DNA of 64,000 nucleotides, taken from contig OMYP01000007.1 of NCBI GenBank assembly GCA_900315345.1, positions 245,115 to 309,114 on the forward strand. Reading direction: 5' to 3'. This stretch comes from an uncultured Selenomonadales bacterium. GTDB taxonomy: Bacteria > Bacillota > Negativicutes > Acidaminococcales > Acidaminococcaceae. A program made the translations under genes and the position numbers. Positions 1,481 to 39,690 of this stretch are shown here, piece by piece (the stretch's first letter is position 1; every line of letters starts with the position of its first letter). The notes below the pieces were generated by a model. The model made no database searches. It was given only the letters and a program-made list of their open reading frames with translations, and was not told where the DNA came from.

Positions 1481-2032
1481 TTATTTCCCGTCCGGTTCAA
1501 AGATGCCTTCGTTATCATCCCACAGCACAACCTCATCGCTGTGAAGGGATTTCTGCACGTCGATCACCCGCTGATTGCTGCTGCCCCGGAACCGCAGCTT
1601 CAGATCTTTTTCTTCCAGATGGAACTCCCCGTCCACCAGAATATCGGTAAGATCCAAAATCTCTTTTGTAATTTCCCAGGGGCCCAGCTTGCCTGCCAGA
1701 ATATCCTTTTCAAAATCGTAACCGGTGTAGCACCAGATGGTTTTGTCAGGATAGAGTTCCTTGAATTTTTTCATCACACGCAGCACGTCCGGCTGGTTTT
1801 CCGGTTCAAAGGGTTCGCCGCCCAAAACGGAAAGTCCTTCGATAAAATTGTGGTTGCAAGCCCGCAGCAGTTTGTCCAGCACTTCCCCGGTAAAGGGTTT
1901 TCCGTAATTGAAATCCCAGGTTTCCGGATTGAAGCAACCCCTGCAGTGATGACGGCAGCCGCTGACGAACAGCGACACCCGGACACCGGGGCCGTTAGCG
2001 ATATCGTGGCGTTTTAGCGTTGCGTAATTCAT
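1481..2032 (-). CDS. nrdG: Anaerobic ribonucleotide reductase activating protein
   Basis: This 183-residue radical SAM protein installs the glycyl radical on NrdD using S-adenosylmethionine and a [4Fe-4S] cluster. The cluster motif CRHHCRGC is visible near residues 26-33, after SLFVSG, as in NrdG. SVLGGEPFEPENQ near residue 70 is the glycine-rich SAM-binding segment. Length is typical of Firmicute NrdG. The ATG has an upstream GGAAGTG at good spacing. It follows nrdD by about 100 bases on the same strand and is probably co-transcribed from the nrdD promoter. Its presence supports anaerobic dNTP synthesis. Confidence 0.95.
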   Translation of the reverse strand: MNYATLKRHDIANGPGVRVSLFVSGCRHHCRGCFNPETWDFNYGKPFTGEVLDKLLRACNHNFIEGLSVLGGEPFEPENQPDVLRVMKKFKELYPDKTIWCYTGYDFEKDILAGKLGPWEITKEILDLTDILVDGEFHLEEKDLKLRFRGSSNQRVIDVQKSLHSDEVVLWDDNEGIFEPDGK

Positions 2033-2135: not shown

Positions 2136-4262
2136 TTACAGATGCAATACCCGGGCTTTGATTTCTTTCGTCTTGCCTACGTTCCAGAAATTTTCTCCCA
2201 GATATCCGCAGGTGCGGCGGGTCACGTTCATCTTAGCGTGGTCCTTGTTATGGCACTGGGGGCATTCCCACTCGTTGTCATCGTTGATCATGATCTCCCC
2301 GTCATAGCCGCAGACCATGCAGTAGTCGGATTTGGTATTGAATTCCGCATACTGGATGTGGTCGTAAATAAACTGCACGGTAGCTTCCAGGGCTTTGGGG
2401 TTGTTCTGCATGTTGGGAATTTCCACATAGCTGATGGCGCCGCCGGAGGACAGCTTCTGGAATTCGCTTTCGAATTCGAATTTGGAGAAGGCGTCGATGT
2501 TTTCCCGCACGTCCACATGATAGGAATTGGTGTAATAGCCTTTATCGGTAATATCTTTAATGGTACCGAAACGTTCTTTATCAACCCGGGCAAAACGGTA
2601 GCACAGGGATTCCGCCGGAGTTCCGTATAAAGCAAAGCCGATGTTGGTCTCGGCCCTCCACCGGTTGCAGGTCTCCCGCAGATGCTTCATAACCCGCAGG
2701 GCGAAGTCCTTGCCTTCCGGCGTGGTATGGCTGCAGCCTTTCACTGCCTTGGTCATTTCATACAGGCCGATATAGCCCAGGGAAATGGAAGAGTACCCGC
2801 CGAACAGATACTTGTCAATCTTCTCCCCTTTACCCAGACGGGCAATGGCGCCGTACTGCCAGTGGATGGGGCTTACGTCAGAGCGTACGCCCAGCAGCGC
2901 GTTGTGACGGCACATGATGGCTTCGAAGCAAAGGGCCAGCCGTTCGTCCAGCAGCTTCCAGAATTTTTCTTCATCCCCGCCGGACAAAATACCGATCTGG
3001 GGCAGGTTGATGGAGACCACGCCCTGGTTAAAGCGGCCTTCAAATTTATAATTTCCGTTTTCATCCTTCCAGGGAGCCAGGAAGCTGCGGCAACCCATGG
3101 GGCTGAACACGTTGCCTTCGTAATTTTCCCGCATCTTCTTGGCGGAAATGTAATCGGGATACATCCGCTTGGCACTGCATTTTACCGCCAGATGGGTCAG
3201 GTAATCGTATTTACCGCCTTTCAGGCAGTTGTTTTCATCCAGCACATAAACCAATTTTGGGAAAGCCGGCGTTACGTAAACGCCCTTTTCGTTTTTAATT
3301 CCCTGCAGGCGCTGCCGGATGATCTCTTCGATGATCATGGCGTTTTCTTCAATATAGGGATCGTCTTCCCGCAGATACAGGAACAACGTCACAAAAGGAG
3401 ACTGACCGTTGGTGGTCATCAGGGTGTTGATCTGATACTGGATAGTCTGGACCCCGGCCTTCAGTTCTTCCCGCAGCCGTTCGTCCACCACGGCTTCCAG
3501 AATTTTCGGGTCAACATTTTCGCCCAGGGTCTCAATGGCCCGTTTCATAAATTTATCCCGGCTCCGGCGCAGGTATTTGCCCAAATGACGCACATCCACA
3601 GACTGGCCGCCGTACTGGCTGGAAGCTACGGAAGCGATGATCTGGGTCATCACGTTGCAGGCAACCTGGAAGCTTCTGGGAGATTCGATCATCTTCCCGT
3701 TCATAACGGTGCCGTTATCCAGCATGTCCCCGATGTTGATCAGGCAGCAGTTGAAGATGGGCTGGATAAAATAATCCATGTCATGGAAATGAAGTACCCC
3801 TTCTTCATGGGCTTTGGCGATCTTTTCCGGAAGGATCACCCGGCGGGTCAGATCCTTGGAAACTTCCCCGGCGATCAGATCCCGCTGGGTAGAAGCCATG
3901 ATGGCATTCTTGTTGCTGTTTTCTTCCATAACGTCCTTGTTGCTGTTACGGATCAGCGTAAGGATGGATTCGTCGGTAGTATTGGACTTACGCACCAGGG
4001 CCCGGCGGTAACGGTAAATGATATAGGCCTTGGCCAGATCGAACTTGCCCGCTTCCTGAAGCTGGCGCTCTACAATGTCCTGGATATCCTCCACCAGCAG
4101 GCGGGGACGGTTTTTCCCGTGGACGTATTCCGCAATTTCCTTAATTTTACTTTCCTCAATGCGGCATCCCTCTTCTACTGCAGCGTTTGCCTTTTCAATG
4201 GCCACCACAATTTTCTGGGGATCAAAATCAACCGTCGTACCGTCGCGTTTAATTACCTTCAT
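2136..4262 (-). CDS. nrdD: Anaerobic (class III) ribonucleoside-triphosphate reductase
   Basis: This 708-residue enzyme reduces ribonucleoside triphosphates to deoxyribonucleotides with a glycyl radical. An ATP-cone occupies about the first 95 residues (MKVIKRDGTTVDFD). The C terminus has paired CMVCG and CPQCHN cysteines for the structural zinc site, then RRTCGYLGEN, which contains the glycyl-radical glycine. The frame extends 56 codons further upstream, but GGAGG nine bases before the ATG at 4262 and alignment to the ATP-cone start fix this start. Upstream lie a TTTACA-N17-TACAAT promoter, NrdR-like boxes and three DnaA boxes, so dATP/ATP status and replication initiation may both control it. 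Confidence 0.97.
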   Translation of the reverse strand: MKVIKRDGTTVDFDPQKIVVAIEKANAAVEEGCRIEESKIKEIAEYVHGKNRPRLLVEDIQDIVERQLQEAGKFDLAKAYIIYRYRRALVRKSNTTDESILTLIRNSNKDVMEENSNKNAIMASTQRDLIAGEVSKDLTRRVILPEKIAKAHEEGVLHFHDMDYFIQPIFNCCLINIGDMLDNGTVMNGKMIESPRSFQVACNVMTQIIASVASSQYGGQSVDVRHLGKYLRRSRDKFMKRAIETLGENVDPKILEAVVDERLREELKAGVQTIQYQINTLMTTNGQSPFVTLFLYLREDDPYIEENAMIIEEIIRQRLQGIKNEKGVYVTPAFPKLVYVLDENNCLKGGKYDYLTHLAVKCSAKRMYPDYISAKKMRENYEGNVFSPMGCRSFLAPWKDENGNYKFEGRFNQGVVSINLPQIGILSGGDEEKFWKLLDERLALCFEAIMCRHNALLGVRSDVSPIHWQYGAIARLGKGEKIDKYLFGGYSSISLGYIGLYEMTKAVKGCSHTTPEGKDFALRVMKHLRETCNRWRAETNIGFALYGTPAESLCYRFARVDKERFGTIKDITDKGYYTNSYHVDVRENIDAFSKFEFESEFQKLSSGGAISYVEIPNMQNNPKALEATVQFIYDHIQYAEFNTKSDYCMVCGYDGEIMINDDNEWECPQCHNKDHAKMNVTRRTCGYLGENFWNVGKTKEIKARVLHL

Positions 4263-4427
4263 GCCACAAAATCCTCCCTGAATTACTGACTCTCTGTTTT
4301 CTTTTTCCGCACCGTCTTCACGATACAAGCTCACGTTCTCTGCTTTTCCATGACGCGGCAAAGCCGCAAACACCTTATGTTGTATCATACAGAATCTGTT
4401 TGCCACTGAAGCTCTGACAAACAGATT

Positions 4428-4474
4428 CATAGATATTGTAGCATGTTCCGCAGTGCTTGTAAACTATATATTGT
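4428..4474 (-). promoter_or_regulatory. nrdD promoter with overlapping NrdR-like boxes
   Basis: On the minus strand, TTTACA (4458-4463) and TACAAT (4435-4440) are separated by exactly 17 bases. Core ACAATATATAGT (4463-4474) matches the NrdR box and overlaps the -35. A weaker core, ACAATATCTATG (4428-4439), covers the -10. Repression by NrdR-nucleotide complexes is the expected role. The two cores are 35 bases apart, a little more than the usual 31-32, so the weaker box is uncertain. Confidence 0.6.
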
Positions 4475-4534
4475 TGTCTGTAATAAAAATTTTCTTTTTT
4501 GCTGTCAATATCTTGTGGTTTGTAAACAGGGTTC

Positions 4535-4565
4535 TGTGGATAACGTGTGGATAAGGTGTGGATAA
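4535..4565. promoter_or_regulatory. Three perfect DnaA boxes, 11-base phased
   Basis: TGTGGATAA occurs at 4535-4543, 4546-4554 and 4557-4565. It is the exact complement of the consensus DnaA box TTATCCACA. The three copies share one orientation and an 11-base period, so they lie on the same helix face. They end about 60 bases upstream of the nrdD -35. A regulatory DnaA array is likely, by analogy with DnaA control of nrdAB in Escherichia coli. An origin role cannot be excluded. Confidence 0.75.
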
Positions 4566-4588
4566 ATTGAGATTTATCTGTGACTAAA

Positions 4589-4738
4589 TTTATGCAGCAA
4601 GGGAAAGGCGTGAGCAAACCGTCGGAGGCGATTGCGTCATTCCATGAGATGAAATTCGCCGTCGTGGCGAGACTGTTTGAGGGGCGAAGCCCCGAGTTTC
4701 GAAGCCACAGGCGAATGAGTCCATGGAATAGCAATCGC
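4589..4738. repeat. Dispersed foldback repeat, copy A (core conserved)
   Basis: About 150 bases match 39487-39636 almost base for base, with only a handful of differences. The arms are mutually inverted: GCGATTGC...TTCCATG pairs with CATGGAATAGCAATCGC, and ATTCGCC pairs with GGCGAAT. They flank a central hairpin, GGGGC-GAA-GCCCC. The outer ends are diverged compared with copy B. There is no coding capacity with a ribosome binding site. It sits between the nrdD control region and ecfT. Confidence 0.85.
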
Positions 4739-4799
4739 AAAAATAAAACAGCCGCAGACAAAACCCGCGACTGTTACAATAAACGATTTACATTTTAAC

Positions 4800-5471
4800 T
4801 CAGAACAAAAACTTTTTCCAAAACGGATAGCTGCTCAGCACAATTACAATGACAAGCACCACGAAATCCACAATGGTAAAGGGTTCCTTCGGCATATTTT
4901 TGTAGGTGTTGGCCCCAAAACCCCGCAGCTCCATAGAAAGGGCTAGGGTCTCAGACTTGGCTACCGCCCGCATTACCAGGGGACGGATCACAACCACGTA
5001 GGACAACAGCCGCTTTAGCGCGTTGCCCCGGTTGGAATAGCCCCGGCAGGACTGAGCGTCCAAAGTTACCGTGCTGTCTTCCAGAAAGTTAGGTACAAAC
5101 CGCAGGGCCGCCGTCAGCATGAAAGCGTATTCCACCGGCAGATGGAACCGGTCCACCAGTGCCTTGGCGATGCTTTGGATTCGCGTAGTGGCCAGCATGC
5201 ACAGGAAGGCCAGAGTCATGACCAGCATCCGCAGGCCGCCGAACAATGACACATTCAGAGGCGAACCGAACAGCAGCTGCAGCAGTATCATCATTCCCGT
5301 AAACACGCCCAGCCCGCCGATGGCAGCCAGCATGGTCTTGCTTCGCTTGATGTACAGCAGCAGCACCAGCTGCAGCACTAAAATGGTTGCTACCGCTTCC
5401 AGCGGCAGGATAAATACCCAGGCCGTCACCGCCAGAGTTACGATGATCCAGGTGAAGGCATTCAGTTTCAT
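4800..5471 (-). CDS. ecfT: ECF transporter transmembrane component (EcfT)
   Basis: This 223-residue membrane protein couples the two ATPases to the substrate-binding S component. The N-terminal half is strongly hydrophobic, with several membrane segments. Two coupling-helix arginine-glycine motifs occur in the cytoplasmic domain, SCRGYSNRG near residue 142 and ELRGFGA near 185, as in EcfT proteins. It is the last gene of a four-gene operon, one base after the upstream ATPase gene. The complete local set (S, A, A', T) indicates a dedicated rather than shared ECF module. Substrate is unknown. Confidence 0.9.
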   Translation of the reverse strand: MKLNAFTWIIVTLAVTAWVFILPLEAVATILVLQLVLLLYIKRSKTMLAAIGGLGVFTGMMILLQLLFGSPLNVSLFGGLRMLVMTLAFLCMLATTRIQSIAKALVDRFHLPVEYAFMLTAALRFVPNFLEDSTVTLDAQSCRGYSNRGNALKRLLSYVVVIRPLVMRAVAKSETLALSMELRGFGANTYKNMPKEPFTIVDFVVLVIVIVLSSYPFWKKFLF

Positions 5472-5472
5472 A

Positions 5473-6273
5473 TCAGAATCCCTCCTTCCGGATTGCGTCG
5501 CAGAACTCGCCGCAGGTTGCGGCGGAAACGCCCAGGGCGGAGGCCAGCACGGAAACCGTAGGACGCCTCAGCCCCCAGCGTTCTACAGGCTGGTTGCCTT
5601 CAAAGAGTTCCTTAGGCGTGCCGCTGAACACAAGATGTCCGTCAGTCAGTACTATGGCCCGTCTGGCATATTGCCGCACCACGTTCATATCATGGGTGAT
5701 CAGGATAATCGTAGTTCCCTTTTCTTCGTTCAGGGCTTTCAGATATTCCAGCATGGCTCCCTGTTCCGCCGCATCCTGGCCGTTGGTAATTTCATCCAAA
5801 ATCAGCATACGCGGGTTCAGGGCCAGGGCCGCTGCCACCCCCAGCCGCCGTTTCTGGCCGAAAGAAAGGACACGGGGATATTTCGCTTCCAGCCCTTTCA
5901 GTCCCATGGCCTGCAGGGCCGCTTTAACATTTTCCTTCACATTTGCTTCCGGCAGTTTTTTCACACGGGGCCCGTAGGCTACTTCTTCGTAAACCGTATC
6001 AGCCAGAATCTGCAGGTCCGGGTTCTGGAACACATACCCGACCTTATCCGCCAGATCTGCCGGTTCATAGTTTACAATATCTTCCCCGTCAACCAAAATC
6101 TGCCCGCTGCGGGGATGGTCCAGGGCCATGAACAGCCGGGACAGGGTGGTCTTTCCGCTGCCGTTGTGCCCCAGCAGGGCCACGAACTCGCCGTCTTCGA
6201 TTTTGCAGTTGATGTCGAACAGTACCGGAATACCGCGGCGATAGGCAAAGTTGATCTCTTTTGCTTCAATCAT
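5473..6273 (-). CDS. ECF transporter ATP-binding protein (EcfA, second copy)
   Basis: This 266-residue ABC ATPase powers vitamin or micronutrient uptake as a heterodimer with the preceding ATPase. Walker A GHNGSGKTT lies near residues 35-43. LSFGQKRRLG replaces the LSGGQ signature, a form common in ECF ATPases. Walker B LILDEITNG and the switch histidine ITHD follow. The start overlaps the previous gene's stop by four bases, which implies translational coupling. Confidence 0.93.
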   Translation of the reverse strand: MIEAKEINFAYRRGIPVLFDINCKIEDGEFVALLGHNGSGKTTLSRLFMALDHPRSGQILVDGEDIVNYEPADLADKVGYVFQNPDLQILADTVYEEVAYGPRVKKLPEANVKENVKAALQAMGLKGLEAKYPRVLSFGQKRRLGVAAALALNPRMLILDEITNGQDAAEQGAMLEYLKALNEEKGTTIILITHDMNVVRQYARRAIVLTDGHLVFSGTPKELFEGNQPVERWGLRRPTVSVLASALGVSAATCGEFCDAIRKEGF

Positions 6274-7133
6274 GCCCTCACCCCTTTTCCAAAACCTCTG
6301 GCCTTAAGTTCTTTTACAGCCTCATCTTCCGATCTCCACAAAGCAAACTTCTGCTGTGTTTTTTCTTCCATATTACATTTTATCTGCCACAGGTCAGGCA
6401 GCAGGGGACGCAGTTCTGCATCTTCGTAAATGCAGGAGACCACGTCTTCGCATTTTCCCTGTGCGGCAACTTCACCGTTTTTGATTGCTATCAGATCGGT
6501 CACAAAGGGCAGGACAAATTCCACCCGGTGTTCTACCACAATAAATGTAGTGCCGTATTCTTCCCGGATCTTGCCTAACAATTTATACAGGCTTTCCCCT
6601 CCGTCCGGGTCCATAGCGCTGACAGGCTCATCCAGTACAATTACTTCCGGATGCACTGCCAGCAGGGAGGCCAAAGCCAGACGCTGCCGCTGCCCGCCGG
6701 ACAGTTCGTCCAGCTGGTAGCTTTCCCGGCCGGGCAGTCCTACATCTTCCAGGGCCTTGCGGGTCCGTTCCTCGGCTTCTTCCGGGGGGAATCCGTGATT
6801 CTGCAGGCTGAAGGCCACTTCCTCCCCTGCCGTCAGGGAAACCAGCTGGCTTTCGTAATCTTCCAGCATCAGTCCCACCTTCATGGCCAGGTCCGAAACT
6901 TTTTTCCCTTTGGTAGTTTCCCCCAGCACTTTCACATCCCCTGCGTAATCGCCGCCTGTATAATAAGGGATGATGCCGGTGATTGATTTGCAGAGAGTTG
7001 TTTTCCCTGCGCCGCTGGGCCCGATGATAACGGTAAAAGAACCTTTTTCTATTTCCAGATTGATATCTTTCAGAACCAGATCGGAGCGGAGGTATTTAAA
7101 ATAAAAATCCGTAACGGAAACTACAGAATTCAT
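6270..7133 (-). CDS. ECF transporter ATP-binding protein (EcfA, first copy)
   Basis: This 287-residue ABC ATPase has Walker A GPSGAGKTT near residue 38, signature LSGGQRQR near 143, Walker B VIVLDEPVSAMD, and the switch histidine in VVEHR. It is a partner of the next ATPase and has about 20 more residues. It overlaps the S-component gene by four bases (ATGA) and the next ATPase by four. ECF systems of Firmicutes use such non-identical ATPase pairs. Confidence 0.93.
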   Translation of the reverse strand: MNSVVSVTDFYFKYLRSDLVLKDINLEIEKGSFTVIIGPSGAGKTTLCKSITGIIPYYTGGDYAGDVKVLGETTKGKKVSDLAMKVGLMLEDYESQLVSLTAGEEVAFSLQNHGFPPEEAEERTRKALEDVGLPGRESYQLDELSGGQRQRLALASLLAVHPEVIVLDEPVSAMDPDGGESLYKLLGKIREEYGTTFIVVEHRVEFVLPFVTDLIAIKNGEVAAQGKCEDVVSCIYEDAELRPLLPDLWQIKCNMEEKTQQKFALWRSEDEAVKELKARGFGKGVRA

Positions 7134-11105: not shown

Positions 11106-11414
11106 TTACGCAAACAGCTTCAGCACATTCTCTTTCGACTGATAACCTACCGCCGTACCGCTCAGTTGCCCGTCCTTAAAAGCCGCCAGGGTCGGGATGC
11201 TCATCACATTGAACAGCTGGGCCAGTTCCGGATTCTCATCCACATCTACCTTGCATACTTTTAATTCCGGATGTTCTTCCGCAATGCTTTCCACTACCGG
11301 CGCCATCATACGGCAGGGGCCGCACCAGGTAGCCCAGAAATCCACCAGTACCGGCTTGTCAGACTGTAACACTTCAGCTTTAAAATTGTCTTTGTTTAAT
11401 GCAATTACTGCCAT
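11106..11414 (-). CDS. trxA: Thioredoxin
   Basis: This protein of about 102 residues has the canonical active site WATWCGPCRMM near residue 30 and the cis-proline in SIPTLAAF near 75, both diagnostic of thioredoxin. It reduces disulfides of cytoplasmic proteins and peroxidases. The ATG at 11414 lies eight bases after GAGG; the ATG two codons earlier is too close to it. It lies between the reductase and a thioredoxin paralogue, all on the same strand. Confidence 0.96.
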   Translation of the reverse strand: MAVIALNKDNFKAEVLQSDKPVLVDFWATWCGPCRMMAPVVESIAEEHPELKVCKVDVDENPELAQLFNVMSIPTLAAFKDGQLSGTAVGYQSKENVLKLFA

Positions 11415-11451
11415 TTTCATTACCTCTTTTCTCTAGATTAATATATTCCTT

Positions 11452-11775
11452 TTAATTCACCATATTCAACAATACGTTTTCCAGCCGCAGCCCCGTAGCC
11501 CGCTTCACCTTTTTCCCCTCTTTGAAAGCAATGGTGGTGGGGATCATCATGATCCCGAACTGCTGGGCAAAAGCTGTATATTCTTCTACATCCAGCTTGC
11601 ACACCTTGATTTCCGGATGCTTATCCGCAATGGAATCAAGGGCCGGCTGCTGCATGCGGCAGGGCTGGTCCCAGGCTGCATAAAAGGTAACCAGGACGGG
11701 TCTGTCGCTTTCTAATACTTCCGTTTTAAAATTATCCGGCGTTACCGAAATTATATTTTCCTTCACTATCTCCAT
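11452..11775 (-). CDS. Thioredoxin-like protein with single active-site cysteine (WDQPC)
   Basis: This 107-residue thioredoxin fold is clearly paralogous to the neighbouring TrxA (shared SDRPVLV, CRM, EIKVCK and IPTTIAF blocks). The first catalytic cysteine is aspartate: AAWDQPCRMQ replaces WCGPC. Ordinary dithiol reductase chemistry is therefore not possible. The remaining cysteine could form mixed disulfides or bind a partner. GGGAG lies nine bases before the ATG. It is the first of three thioredoxin-system genes on this strand, so it is probably expressed with them. Confidence 0.85.
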   Translation of the reverse strand: MEIVKENIISVTPDNFKTEVLESDRPVLVTFYAAWDQPCRMQQPALDSIADKHPEIKVCKLDVEEYTAFAQQFGIMMIPTTIAFKEGKKVKRATGLRLENVLLNMVN

Positions 11776-13076: not shown

Positions 13077-13793
13077 TTATTCCTCAATCGTAACCTTCGT
13101 ACCTACGCGCACATACTGCTTCAGCTCTTCTACATTCTGGTTTTGCAGGCGGATGCATCCTTCCGAATCCATGGCCCGCATTACATTGGGCTTATGGGTT
13201 CCGTGGATACCGATACCGCCCCAGGCCCCTTTGCTCATTTCATCGGTGTTGATGCTGATGAACCAGGGACCGTAAGCCCCTTTGATCTCGCCTTTACCAT
13301 CGCCGAAATCGTGGGTCCAACCGGATGCGTCGTCAATTTCATCCACATAGAATGTACCCGTAGGGGTCTTCATGTCGCCCCGTTTCTGTTTCTGTCCGGG
13401 GTTTTTACCGATAGTGCAGTCATAGGATTTGATCACGGTATTTTTATTGTCCAGCAGATACAGGGTATACGCGCTCTTTTTAATAAAAATACTGTATTTT
13501 TTCTGATCAGCATTCTGTTTGATCAGGGCTTTTTCCTGCTTTGCTTTTTCAGCCGCTTCCAGTTTTTTCTTTTCCGCTTCTTCTTTTGCCTTTTTCTCCG
13601 CTGCTTCTTTCGCTTTCTTTTCTGCCGCCAGTTCCTCCTGGGTCTTTTGCGGCTTCTGCGTCTCCGTCACTTTTGTTTTAGCGTTTTCTTTGGATTTTTC
13701 TTCCGCGCAGCCTGCTGCCGTCATTGCAGAAGCCAGCATCAGTATCGCCATGAATATCGTAATAATTTTTGAAAGCATTCCTTTGTTCTTCAT
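13077..13793 (-). CDS. Exported L,D-transpeptidase (YkuD family), active-site residues present
   Basis: This 238-residue envelope protein has an N-terminal signal (MLSKIITIFMAILMLASA, then AAGC, a weak lipobox). A highly charged Lys/Glu/Ala-rich coiled coil spans about residues 30-95, and a YkuD domain spans about 100-238. GIHGTHKP and DSEGCIRL supply the catalytic histidine and cysteine of L,D-transpeptidases, which form 3-3 cross-links or attach proteins to peptidoglycan. The start at 13793 has AGTGAG upstream. A catalytically altered paralogue lies immediately upstream. Confidence 0.92.
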   Translation of the reverse strand: MKNKGMLSKIITIFMAILMLASAMTAAGCAEEKSKENAKTKVTETQKPQKTQEELAAEKKAKEAAEKKAKEEAEKKKLEAAEKAKQEKALIKQNADQKKYSIFIKKSAYTLYLLDNKNTVIKSYDCTIGKNPGQKQKRGDMKTPTGTFYVDEIDDASGWTHDFGDGKGEIKGAYGPWFISINTDEMSKGAWGGIGIHGTHKPNVMRAMDSEGCIRLQNQNVEELKQYVRVGTKVTIEE

Positions 13794-13831
13794 TATTATT
13801 CTCACTTTCTTCTTTATTTCGCGGTAAAAAG

Positions 13832-13873
13832 AAAGAGTTATTCCGCAAGCGCTTCTTGGGGGAATAACTCTTT
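13832..13873 (-). terminator. Rho-independent terminator between the two YkuD genes
   Basis: AGAGTTATTCC pairs with GGAATAACTCT around a loop of about 16 bases, and TTCTTTTT follows on the minus strand. It ends the transcript of the upstream paralogue before the active enzyme's gene. Confidence 0.8.
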
Positions 13874-13883
13874 TATCCGCTGA

Positions 13884-14588
13884 TTACTCTTTAATCGTTA
13901 CAACCGTACCGACTTTTACAAACTTTTTAATTTCTTCGATATCGCTGTTCCGCACCCGGATGCTGCCTGCCGAAGAAGCCCTGCCCAGGCCTTCCGGCTT
14001 GTTGGTTCCGGAAATACCGATTCCGTTCCATTCGCCCTTGCTCAGTTCCCGGGTATCCAGCGTGATAAACCAGGGTCCGTAAGCGCCCTTTCCGTCTTCA
14101 TCAGAAACCCAGTCCGATGACGGATTGATGGATTCAACTTTGAAGGTGCCAACCGGGGTCCTTGCATCCCCTGTTTTTGTCTTTTGCCCGGGGTTGCGCC
14201 CTACCGCACAGTTATATTCTTTAATGGGATTTCCGTTGTCCAACAGGGAAATCCGGTACGCGCTCTTGGTTACTACCAGGCTGTAAGTGTGGCTTTGTAC
14301 CGGCTGTGCCGCAACTTTGGCCTCTTCAACCTTTTGCTTCTGCACTTCTGCTTTTTTGGCGATTTCCGCCTGCCCTTTCTGTTCCGCTTTTTCCGTTTCT
14401 GTCAGCTTTGGCTGGGCCTTATCCGCAAAAAAAGGCGCCGCACTCAGCTGGTTGTAGGTACCGCTTACCAGCAAAATCAAAAGACCTGCCGTCACCACTT
14501 TGCCAACGGTACTTCTGCGCATCCAGCGCAGGGCAATGGCAAGATAAGCCAGCATATATACAAAAACGCTCGGTTTTGATTTCTTCAT
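13884..14588 (-). CDS. YkuD-fold paralogue lacking catalytic His and Cys (pseudoenzyme)
   Basis: This protein of about 234 residues has an N-terminal membrane anchor (VVTAGLLILLVSG near residue 35), a Lys/Glu/Ala/Gln-rich helical stalk, and a YkuD domain that follows its neighbour almost block for block (NPGQK, GAYGPWFI, VGTVVTIKE). The active-site blocks read GISGTNKP and ASSAGSIRV: serine stands where the catalytic histidine and cysteine should be. I checked both codons (TCC, AGC). The fold is kept without frameshift, so it is probably a binding or regulatory protein, not a pseudogene. ATG at 14588 follows AAAGGTG. Confidence 0.88.
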   Translation of the reverse strand: MKKSKPSVFVYMLAYLAIALRWMRRSTVGKVVTAGLLILLVSGTYNQLSAAPFFADKAQPKLTETEKAEQKGQAEIAKKAEVQKQKVEEAKVAAQPVQSHTYSLVVTKSAYRISLLDNGNPIKEYNCAVGRNPGQKTKTGDARTPVGTFKVESINPSSDWVSDEDGKGAYGPWFITLDTRELSKGEWNGIGISGTNKPEGLGRASSAGSIRVRNSDIEEIKKFVKVGTVVTIKE

Positions 14589-14818
14589 CAAATCACACCT
14601 TTACTGTCAAATATAATGTATTCCGGTAAAATTCTTCGTATGGCTTTCTAACGATCTGCAGATTAAAATACGCACAGTGACGTAAACTATATTGAAAAGA
14701 AATCAGTGGAATAAATCCTATATATTCCTACTGTAACTTTATTATAGCACAAATTATAGTGATATTGGTAGTAAATTTACTTGTTTAACAAAAAACACAC
14801 AATTAGCGCCCGCAGCTG

Positions 14819-39463: not shown

Positions 39464-39690
39464 AAATTGAAGTTTTTGTGTGCATAAAATTATGCGGCAA
39501 GGGAAAGGCGTGAGCAAACCGTCGGAGGCGATTGCGTCATTCCATGAGATGAATTTCGCCGTCGTGGCGAGACTGTTCGAGGGACGAAGTCCCGAGTTTC
39601 GAAGCCACAGGCGAATGAATCCATGTAATAGCAATCGGTGACGGGTTTGCGATGCCTTTGCCTGACAGCATAATTTTGGCACATTAATTC
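39464..39690. repeat. Dispersed foldback repeat, copy B (most complete)
   Basis: About 225 bases form one long imperfect inverted repeat. The ends GTGTGC..AAAATTATGC and its complement GCATAATTTTGGCACAT match, and inner arms include GGCGATTGC / CAATCGG, ATTCCATG / CATGTAAT and TTCGCC / GGCGAA. The central hairpin is GGGAC-GAA-GTCCC. The core of copy A at 4589-4738 has GGGGC-GAA-GCCCC: a compensatory pair change. No transposase is near. It resembles a non-autonomous (MITE-like) element or structured intergenic repeat. Confidence 0.85.

Follow-up and report, generated by a model that had tools for sequence, protein, structure and literature searches.

An array of predicted DnaA boxes next to predicted NrdR boxes upstream of the class III ribonucleotide reductase operon nrdDG is conserved within one genus of Acidaminococcaceae

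Does an anaerobic bacterium adjust its supply of DNA precursors to the initiation of chromosome replication, and could the promoter of its class III ribonucleotide reductase be a site where the two processes meet? The question is raised by a 64,000-nucleotide stretch of an uncultured Selenomonadales genome (the window), in which closely packed DnaA boxes precede the nrdD gene. In the sections available, a review asks how species without Hda coordinate dNTP synthesis with initiation (PMC11853086), and the nrdDG promoter offers a concrete candidate for such coordination. The genome encodes its own DnaA, with a Bac_DnaA_C domain and a GRDHTT motif; a search of the same genome for YabA gave no match, and the sole second Bac_DnaA match (23.8 bits) lies in a protein that by eye looks DnaC/IstB-like. 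The earlier note had treated DnaA control as established for the aerobic nrdAB operon of Escherichia coli, and such control is not limited to nrdAB, as binding of E. coli DnaA upstream of nrdD, detected by ChIP-seq in 2024 at a double box with a 2-bp spacer, is described in part of a published study that also describes a general preference of this DnaA for boxes 2-3 bp apart (PMC11317965). Deletion of DARS2 in E. coli is further described, in an excerpt of another study, as leading to NrdD overexpression (PMC12371093).

The intergenic region between nrdD and its upstream neighbour (4263-4799) holds, in order toward nrdD, a terminator-like hairpin, a degenerate DnaA-like box, three perfect DnaA boxes, the predicted distal and proximal NrdR boxes, and the predicted promoter (Table 1). 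Translation of nrdD likely starts at the ATG at 4262, which is preceded by GGGAGG, rather than at the upstream start of the open reading frame. The promoter proposed earlier, TTTACA-N17-TACAAT, was borne out on the minus strand (4463 to 4435), where the predicted elements match the consensus at 10 of 12 positions and a TG precedes the -10 hexamer; a TGCTA-AAT block at the -10 is kept in the alignment of nine of the ten genus loci, and transcription is inferred to start near 4428. The predicted terminator that follows the upstream gene makes it likely that nrdDG is transcribed separately. That gene is likely ecfT, a name taken from two neighbouring genes (5473-7133) that score best against ECF transporter ATPase models, at values under the model cut-offs.

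Several other elements of the window were recorded. A long hairpin-forming element at 4614-4745 (z-score -4.63 for 4590-4760) stands between the DnaA array and the upstream gene; a 23-base segment of this element has one further copy in the window, at 39597-39619, with one mismatch. Two tandem thioredoxin-like genes at 11106-11775 adjoin a thioredoxin-reductase-like gene, and the second has WDQPC in place of WCGPC, the first active-site cysteine being apparently lost (by eye). At 13077-14591, an adjacent pair of L,D-transpeptidase-like genes includes a second member with SAGS, lacking the cysteine of the SEGC in the first (also by eye).

Table 1. Predicted features of the nrdDG locus, in window coordinates
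Feature	Position	Strand	Basis or remark
nrdG, NrdD-activating enzyme	1481..2032	(-)	TIGR02491 181 bits (cut-off 126)
nrdD, anaerobic (class III) ribonucleoside-triphosphate reductase, 708 aa	2136..4262	(-)	NF006732 951 bits (cut-off 657); TIGR02487 491 bits (cut-off 326)
Predicted -10 TACAAT with TG extension	4435..4440	(-)	consensus scan
Predicted -35 TTTACA, spacer 17 bp	4458..4463	(-)	consensus scan
Predicted proximal NrdR box CAACAATATATAGTTT	4461..4476	(-)	best-scoring pair with distal box
Predicted distal NrdR box CCACAAGATATTGACA	4503..4518	(-)	best-scoring pair; CCACAAGATATTG block in genus alignment
Predicted DnaA box 1 (promoter-proximal), TTATCCACA	4535..4543	(-)	exact motif match
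Predicted DnaA box 2, TTATCCACA	4546..4554	(-)	exact motif match
Predicted DnaA box 3, TTATCCACA	4557..4565	(-)	exact motif match
Degenerate DnaA-like box 4, TTAGTCACA	4579..4587	(-)	1 mismatch vs TTATNCACA; 22 bp upstream of box 3
Predicted intrinsic terminator 3' of upstream gene	4747..4775	(-)	consensus scan
Upstream neighbour gene, likely ecfT	4800..5471	(-)	no NCBIfam hit; named from two neighbours

The three exact copies at an 11-base period that had drawn attention to the locus were confirmed: the predicted boxes read TGTGGATAA on the plus strand and TTATCCACA on the minus strand, repeat at exactly 11 bp with 2-bp spacers, and lie about 270-300 bp from the nrdD start codon. Counted from the promoter-proximal box, box starts fall at 0, 11, and 22 bp, with the degenerate box at 44 bp, all in the same orientation. 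Single boxes mean little alone, because TTWTNCACA is only mildly over-represented in the window (13 matches vs 6.49 expected, a count reached by 2 of 100 shuffles). It is the pair with a 2-bp spacer, not the single box, that is the signal beyond chance: in the whole 2.3-Mb assembly (32 contigs, 98% complete), TTWTNCACA-N2-TTWTNCACA has two overlapping matches, both of which are the nrdD array. The locus thus carries a double box with a 2-3 bp spacer upstream of an nrd operon, the arrangement by which a DnaA-regulated ribonucleotide reductase promoter would be recognized.

The phylogenetic reach of the array was assessed in upstream regions of up to 700 bp, shorter at three loci of the family comparison that lie on contig ends, with a double box defined as two boxes separated by 2-3 bp, one perfect and the other with at most two mismatches. 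Within the genus, 14 genomes were available, 10 of them with a close nrdD ortholog and three (G044, G046, and G054) without; G047 (73% complete), with neither a close nrdD ortholog nor ecfT, was set aside and counted on neither side. The rest of the family comprised 49 searched genomes, from which 37 close nrdD orthologs were used, the others having distant NrdD relatives or none. Outside the family but in the same class, 28 genomes passed a threshold of E 1e-100 and 27 upstream regions were taken (G090 was left out), and 80 further nrdD loci, minus 13 duplicates of family loci, gave 67.

All ten genus loci carry at least one TTATNCACA upstream of nrdD, in a single orientation, and nine of the ten have a double box, counts that are not independent because the genomes are related. 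Double boxes occur in 0/37 other family loci, 1/27 other loci of the class, and 0/67 further loci, and shuffled genus upstream regions gave a mean of 0.00 over 20 shuffles. Across the order, TTATNCACA-N2-TTATNCACA was found in 8 of 63 genomes; seven belong to this genus (7/14), with all matches upstream of nrdD, and the eighth is G033 of another genus, in which the pair adjoins a uxaE-like gene. Single boxes also occur outside the genus, with TTATNCACA absent upstream of nrdD from all 37 other family loci (shuffle mean 1.05) and present in 3/27 loci of the class (shuffle mean 1.45) and 7/67 further nrdD loci (shuffle mean 1.10). The expectation that the boxes would be conserved in close relatives held at all 10 genus nrdD loci, with no TTATNCACA at the 37 other family loci, and the array looks like a genus-level feature, dispensable for nrdD in the rest of the family, which has the same gene and no array. 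DnaA boxes as a general trait of Negativicutes nrdD found no support in the same family count or in the three other-class loci, all from one genus and each with a single TTATACACA. These three loci (L217, L219, and L220 of g24) have that box about 225-245 bp upstream of nrdD.

Within the genus, variation in layout is largely variation in spacing. Five of the ten loci (G045, G049, G052, G055, and G056) have box starts at 0, 11, 31, and 52 bp from the promoter-proximal box; all four boxes are TTATNCACA in G045, G052, and G055, and one of the four is mismatched in G049 and G056. G051 and G053 have boxes at 0 and 11 bp, and G050 retains a single perfect box plus degraded ones. G048 is the locus without a double box, its one perfect box being accompanied by degenerate ones 22 and 31 bp away (9 bp apart); further boxes lie 9 and 31 bp on from the mismatched promoter-proximal box. 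The distance between the distal NrdR box and the start of the proximal DnaA box, obtained by subtraction of positions, is 25 bp in the window's own genome (G000), G045, G052, G055, and G056; elsewhere this offset is 15 bp (G051 and G053), 14 bp (G050), 23 bp (G049), or 26 bp (G048, measured from the mismatched box). Most offsets among predicted DnaA and NrdR boxes are thus near whole helical turns, with G048 and G049 as exceptions. In an alignment of nine genus loci (G050 was left out here and included in the box, double-box, and NrdR counts), box letters are conserved and spacers vary, and most of the variation in the proximal box falls at position 5 (C/T/G), which the DnaA consensus leaves free.

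The predicted NrdR boxes start 42 bp apart in the window, equal to four helical turns, and in all ten genus loci the best-scoring pair lies 41-42 bp apart with a 25-26 bp spacer. The genome has an nrdR gene (G000:C10; TIGR00244, 203.9 bits vs a cut-off of 124.65), as do 13 of the 14 genus genomes, this one included, so that both marks of an NrdR operator are present: the regulator gene and, near the promoter, two predicted boxes separated by a whole number of turns. In the accessible portion of PMC12051234, a second binding optimum of NrdR at spacers of 24-27 bp is described, with repression in vivo at 26 +/- 1 bp, and the 26-bp spacer of the window falls inside this bound range; for one NrdR, binding was 13-fold weaker at the native 25-26 bp spacer than at 16 bp; in vivo, the authors suggest, NrdR binding may be aided by other factors. 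NrdR-like cores had earlier been placed over both the -35 and the -10: the proximal box does overlap the -35 edge, and the core over the -10 (4429-4440) was discarded as weak, being outside the four best-scoring 16-mers and not half of the best pair. The idea that four-turn NrdR spacing arose together with the DnaA array found no support, as the same 41-42 bp spacing is found in 8 of 9 g2 loci and in g4.

The array does not extend to every ribonucleotide reductase of the genus. A second class III reductase (L209, G000:C18:89995-92574) is an 860-aa open frame with NRDD and ATP-cone domains, a weak glutaredoxin-like tail, and an NrdR core about 0.7 kb upstream. No TTATNCACA was found upstream of this enzyme in the loci of eight genomes (one with a partial match); the G049 locus has one TTTTCCACA about 180 bp upstream. 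DnaA boxes on all ribonucleotide reductase genes of the genus are thus not supported in the case of this second enzyme, and not all dNTP supply would therefore be linked to DnaA.

Two further box arrangements were observed. At L208 (G000:C4:13247-13415), seven TTATNCACA-type boxes of mixed orientation are densely clustered in the interval that separates a GH77/alpha-amylase gene from a uxaE-like gene, and the cluster is seen in this neighbourhood in other genus members too (L101, L104, L110, L112, and L125); boxes also adjoin a uxaE-like gene in L005 of G033, from another genus. Such a cluster may represent a datA-like site or an element of an origin. In uncultured Clostridia, 5 of 67 non-duplicate loci (L136, L154, L155, L191, and L197) have an inverted TTATCRACA-N14-TGTGSATAA by the nrdD NrdR boxes, one arm being imperfect and the other running into an NrdR-like box, a layout that is possibly an independent DnaA/NrdR composite.

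Taken at the level of sequence, the conserved TTATNCACA array is predicted to be bound by DnaA and would likely make nrdDG transcription respond to DnaA as well as to dATP. DnaA would bind the double or triple box cooperatively and multimerize on one helix face, over roughly -107 to -137 relative to the predicted transcription start, and NrdR would repress from its two boxes, four turns apart, at high dATP. Within this scheme, DnaA is somewhat more readily pictured as activating, or as counteracting NrdR, than as blocking RNA polymerase, because the array covers neither the promoter nor the NrdR boxes; the sign is a guess from position and close to an even call. DnaA control of a class III reductase, as originally suggested, gains from the retention of the array in the genus and its absence along with nrdD, both of which regulatory control predicts; the suggestion is supported in part, and within the family for one genus.

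The main rival is a variant in sign, in which the array represses nrdDG at high DnaA-ATP, most readily through joint repression with NrdR; it is a serious contender, though a less probable one. It would follow the precedent of nrdAB, which is repressed at high DnaA-ATP and de-repressed at low according to part of the review cited above (PMC11853086), and it would give a role to the helper factors suggested for an NrdR that binds 13 times more weakly at its native spacer (PMC12051234, in the portion noted). Direct occlusion, however, is impossible without looping or a joint complex, since the boxes lie upstream of the promoter and the NrdR boxes and not over them.

A second alternative, raised at the outset in its titration form, makes the array a datA- or DARS-like site for titration or nucleotide exchange of DnaA, with nrdD no more than its neighbour. 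Titration of DnaA by the E. coli chromosome is described in the excerpt of PMC12371093, and other box clusters exist in the genus, such as that between the GH77 and uxaE-like genes. The genomes that bear most directly on this reading are G044, G046, and G054 (93-99% complete), which lack a close nrdD ortholog, have the second class III type alone among their NrdD matches, and have kept ecfT. At the retained ecfT locus, none of the three has a TTATNCACA, and a different reading frame directly follows ecfT, in contrast to boxes in 10/10 loci with nrdD. By the yardstick adopted here, a datA- or DARS-like site is kept whatever operon adjoins it, and in all three genomes it was not. Nothing would have obliged a site of pure titration to disappear with the operon, and this form of the reading is disfavoured. 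The 25-bp offset to the NrdR box in five of ten loci (10-11 bp shorter in three more) and the single orientation of all array boxes also speak against it, and the reading is considered improbable in its pure form. An ecfT tree of 12 genus members (G048, with no ecfT found in its locus, was left out) sets the three genomes apart by a branch with support of 97/94, found in 98% of bootstrap trees; with midpoint rooting, their clade falls in the larger of the two halves of the genus, and 6 of the 9 inner branches are unresolved. Most likely, the operon (as judged by nrdD) and the array were lost together in one clade.

That the array is a chance or neutral tandem repeat of an 11-mer is very improbable: the unit is short and tandem, as such repeats are, but the boxes are maintained although their spacers change from copy to copy and from species to species, box offsets of 20-21 bp also occur, and a chance origin was ruled out by this conservation, by the assembly-wide uniqueness of the pair, and by the shuffles. 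Least probable of all is the suggestion that the array belongs to a replication origin, which is contradicted, despite perfect DnaA boxes clustering in intergenic DNA, by a GC skew that is negative in every 4-kb step over 124 kb (the 64-kb window plus the 60 kb to its left) and so shows no sign change, by the position of dnaA (Pfam), which lies on contig C29 together with several boxes of its own and with frames that by eye resemble dnaN, recF, and gyrB, while the array is on C8, and by absence of the array in relatives.

Returning to the preferred reading, in which the array makes nrdDG responsive to DnaA, a more specific and distinctly tentative version can be proposed. A polar DnaA multimer on the same-face array would join with a relaxed four-turn operator, occupied by an NrdR tetramer, in one helically phased complex, a two-input gate through which nrdDG would read both the initiation state and the dNTP state; such a gate would have arisen de novo at the base of a single genus of anaerobes, whose lineage is one in which neither YabA nor a second clear DnaA-family ATPase was found, and lost together with nrdD. 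More generally, a same-facing DnaA array by NrdR sites would likely tie DNA-precursor supply to chromosome replication and, if bound, would mean that DnaA is wired to a class III reductase in a geometry different from the E. coli one. The composite promoter is a short one and lends itself to direct tests.

Comparison with known systems places the locus close to, and yet apart from, several precedents. The double box at E. coli nrdDG, as described in the part of PMC11317965 consulted, shares the target operon, a 2-bp-spaced pair with one box perfect, and the presence of NrdR boxes. In the E. coli MG1655 record, however, the nrdD DnaA pair lies downstream of the NrdR boxes (which agree with a probe printed in the available part of PMC12176259) and, by inference, of the promoter, near the start codon, whereas here the array is upstream, with three perfect boxes in one orientation. 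E. coli nrdAB likewise has a DnaA pair at a ribonucleotide reductase promoter (PMC11317965) together with NrdR boxes (PMC12176259), both as given in the same partial sources, but it encodes a class Ia aerobic enzyme and has a 3-bp spacer, in contrast to the class III enzyme of a Negativicute. Tandem NrdR operators of other ribonucleotide reductase operons, in the portions of PMC12051234 and PMC12176259 seen, also have two boxes whole turns apart and nrdR in the genome; four turns are used here where three are commoner, and a DnaA array flanks the operator upstream. The dnaA-dnaN, noc-soj, and GH77-uxaE clusters of the same genus (named by eye or similarity) have TTATNCACA boxes too, but neighbouring boxes in them are separated by 0, 1, 3, or more bp, and among the 14 genus genomes the perfect 2-bp pair is found at nrdD only. 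No prior report of a DnaA array at nrdD in Negativicutes was found in the literature searched, which left most subscription journals outside its scope, and PMC2892513 and PMC2864759 offered nothing relevant to the point. DnaA at nrdD is thus already known, and what is new relative to that literature is the position of the array, the number of perfect boxes, their polarity, and their occurrence in one Negativicute genus.
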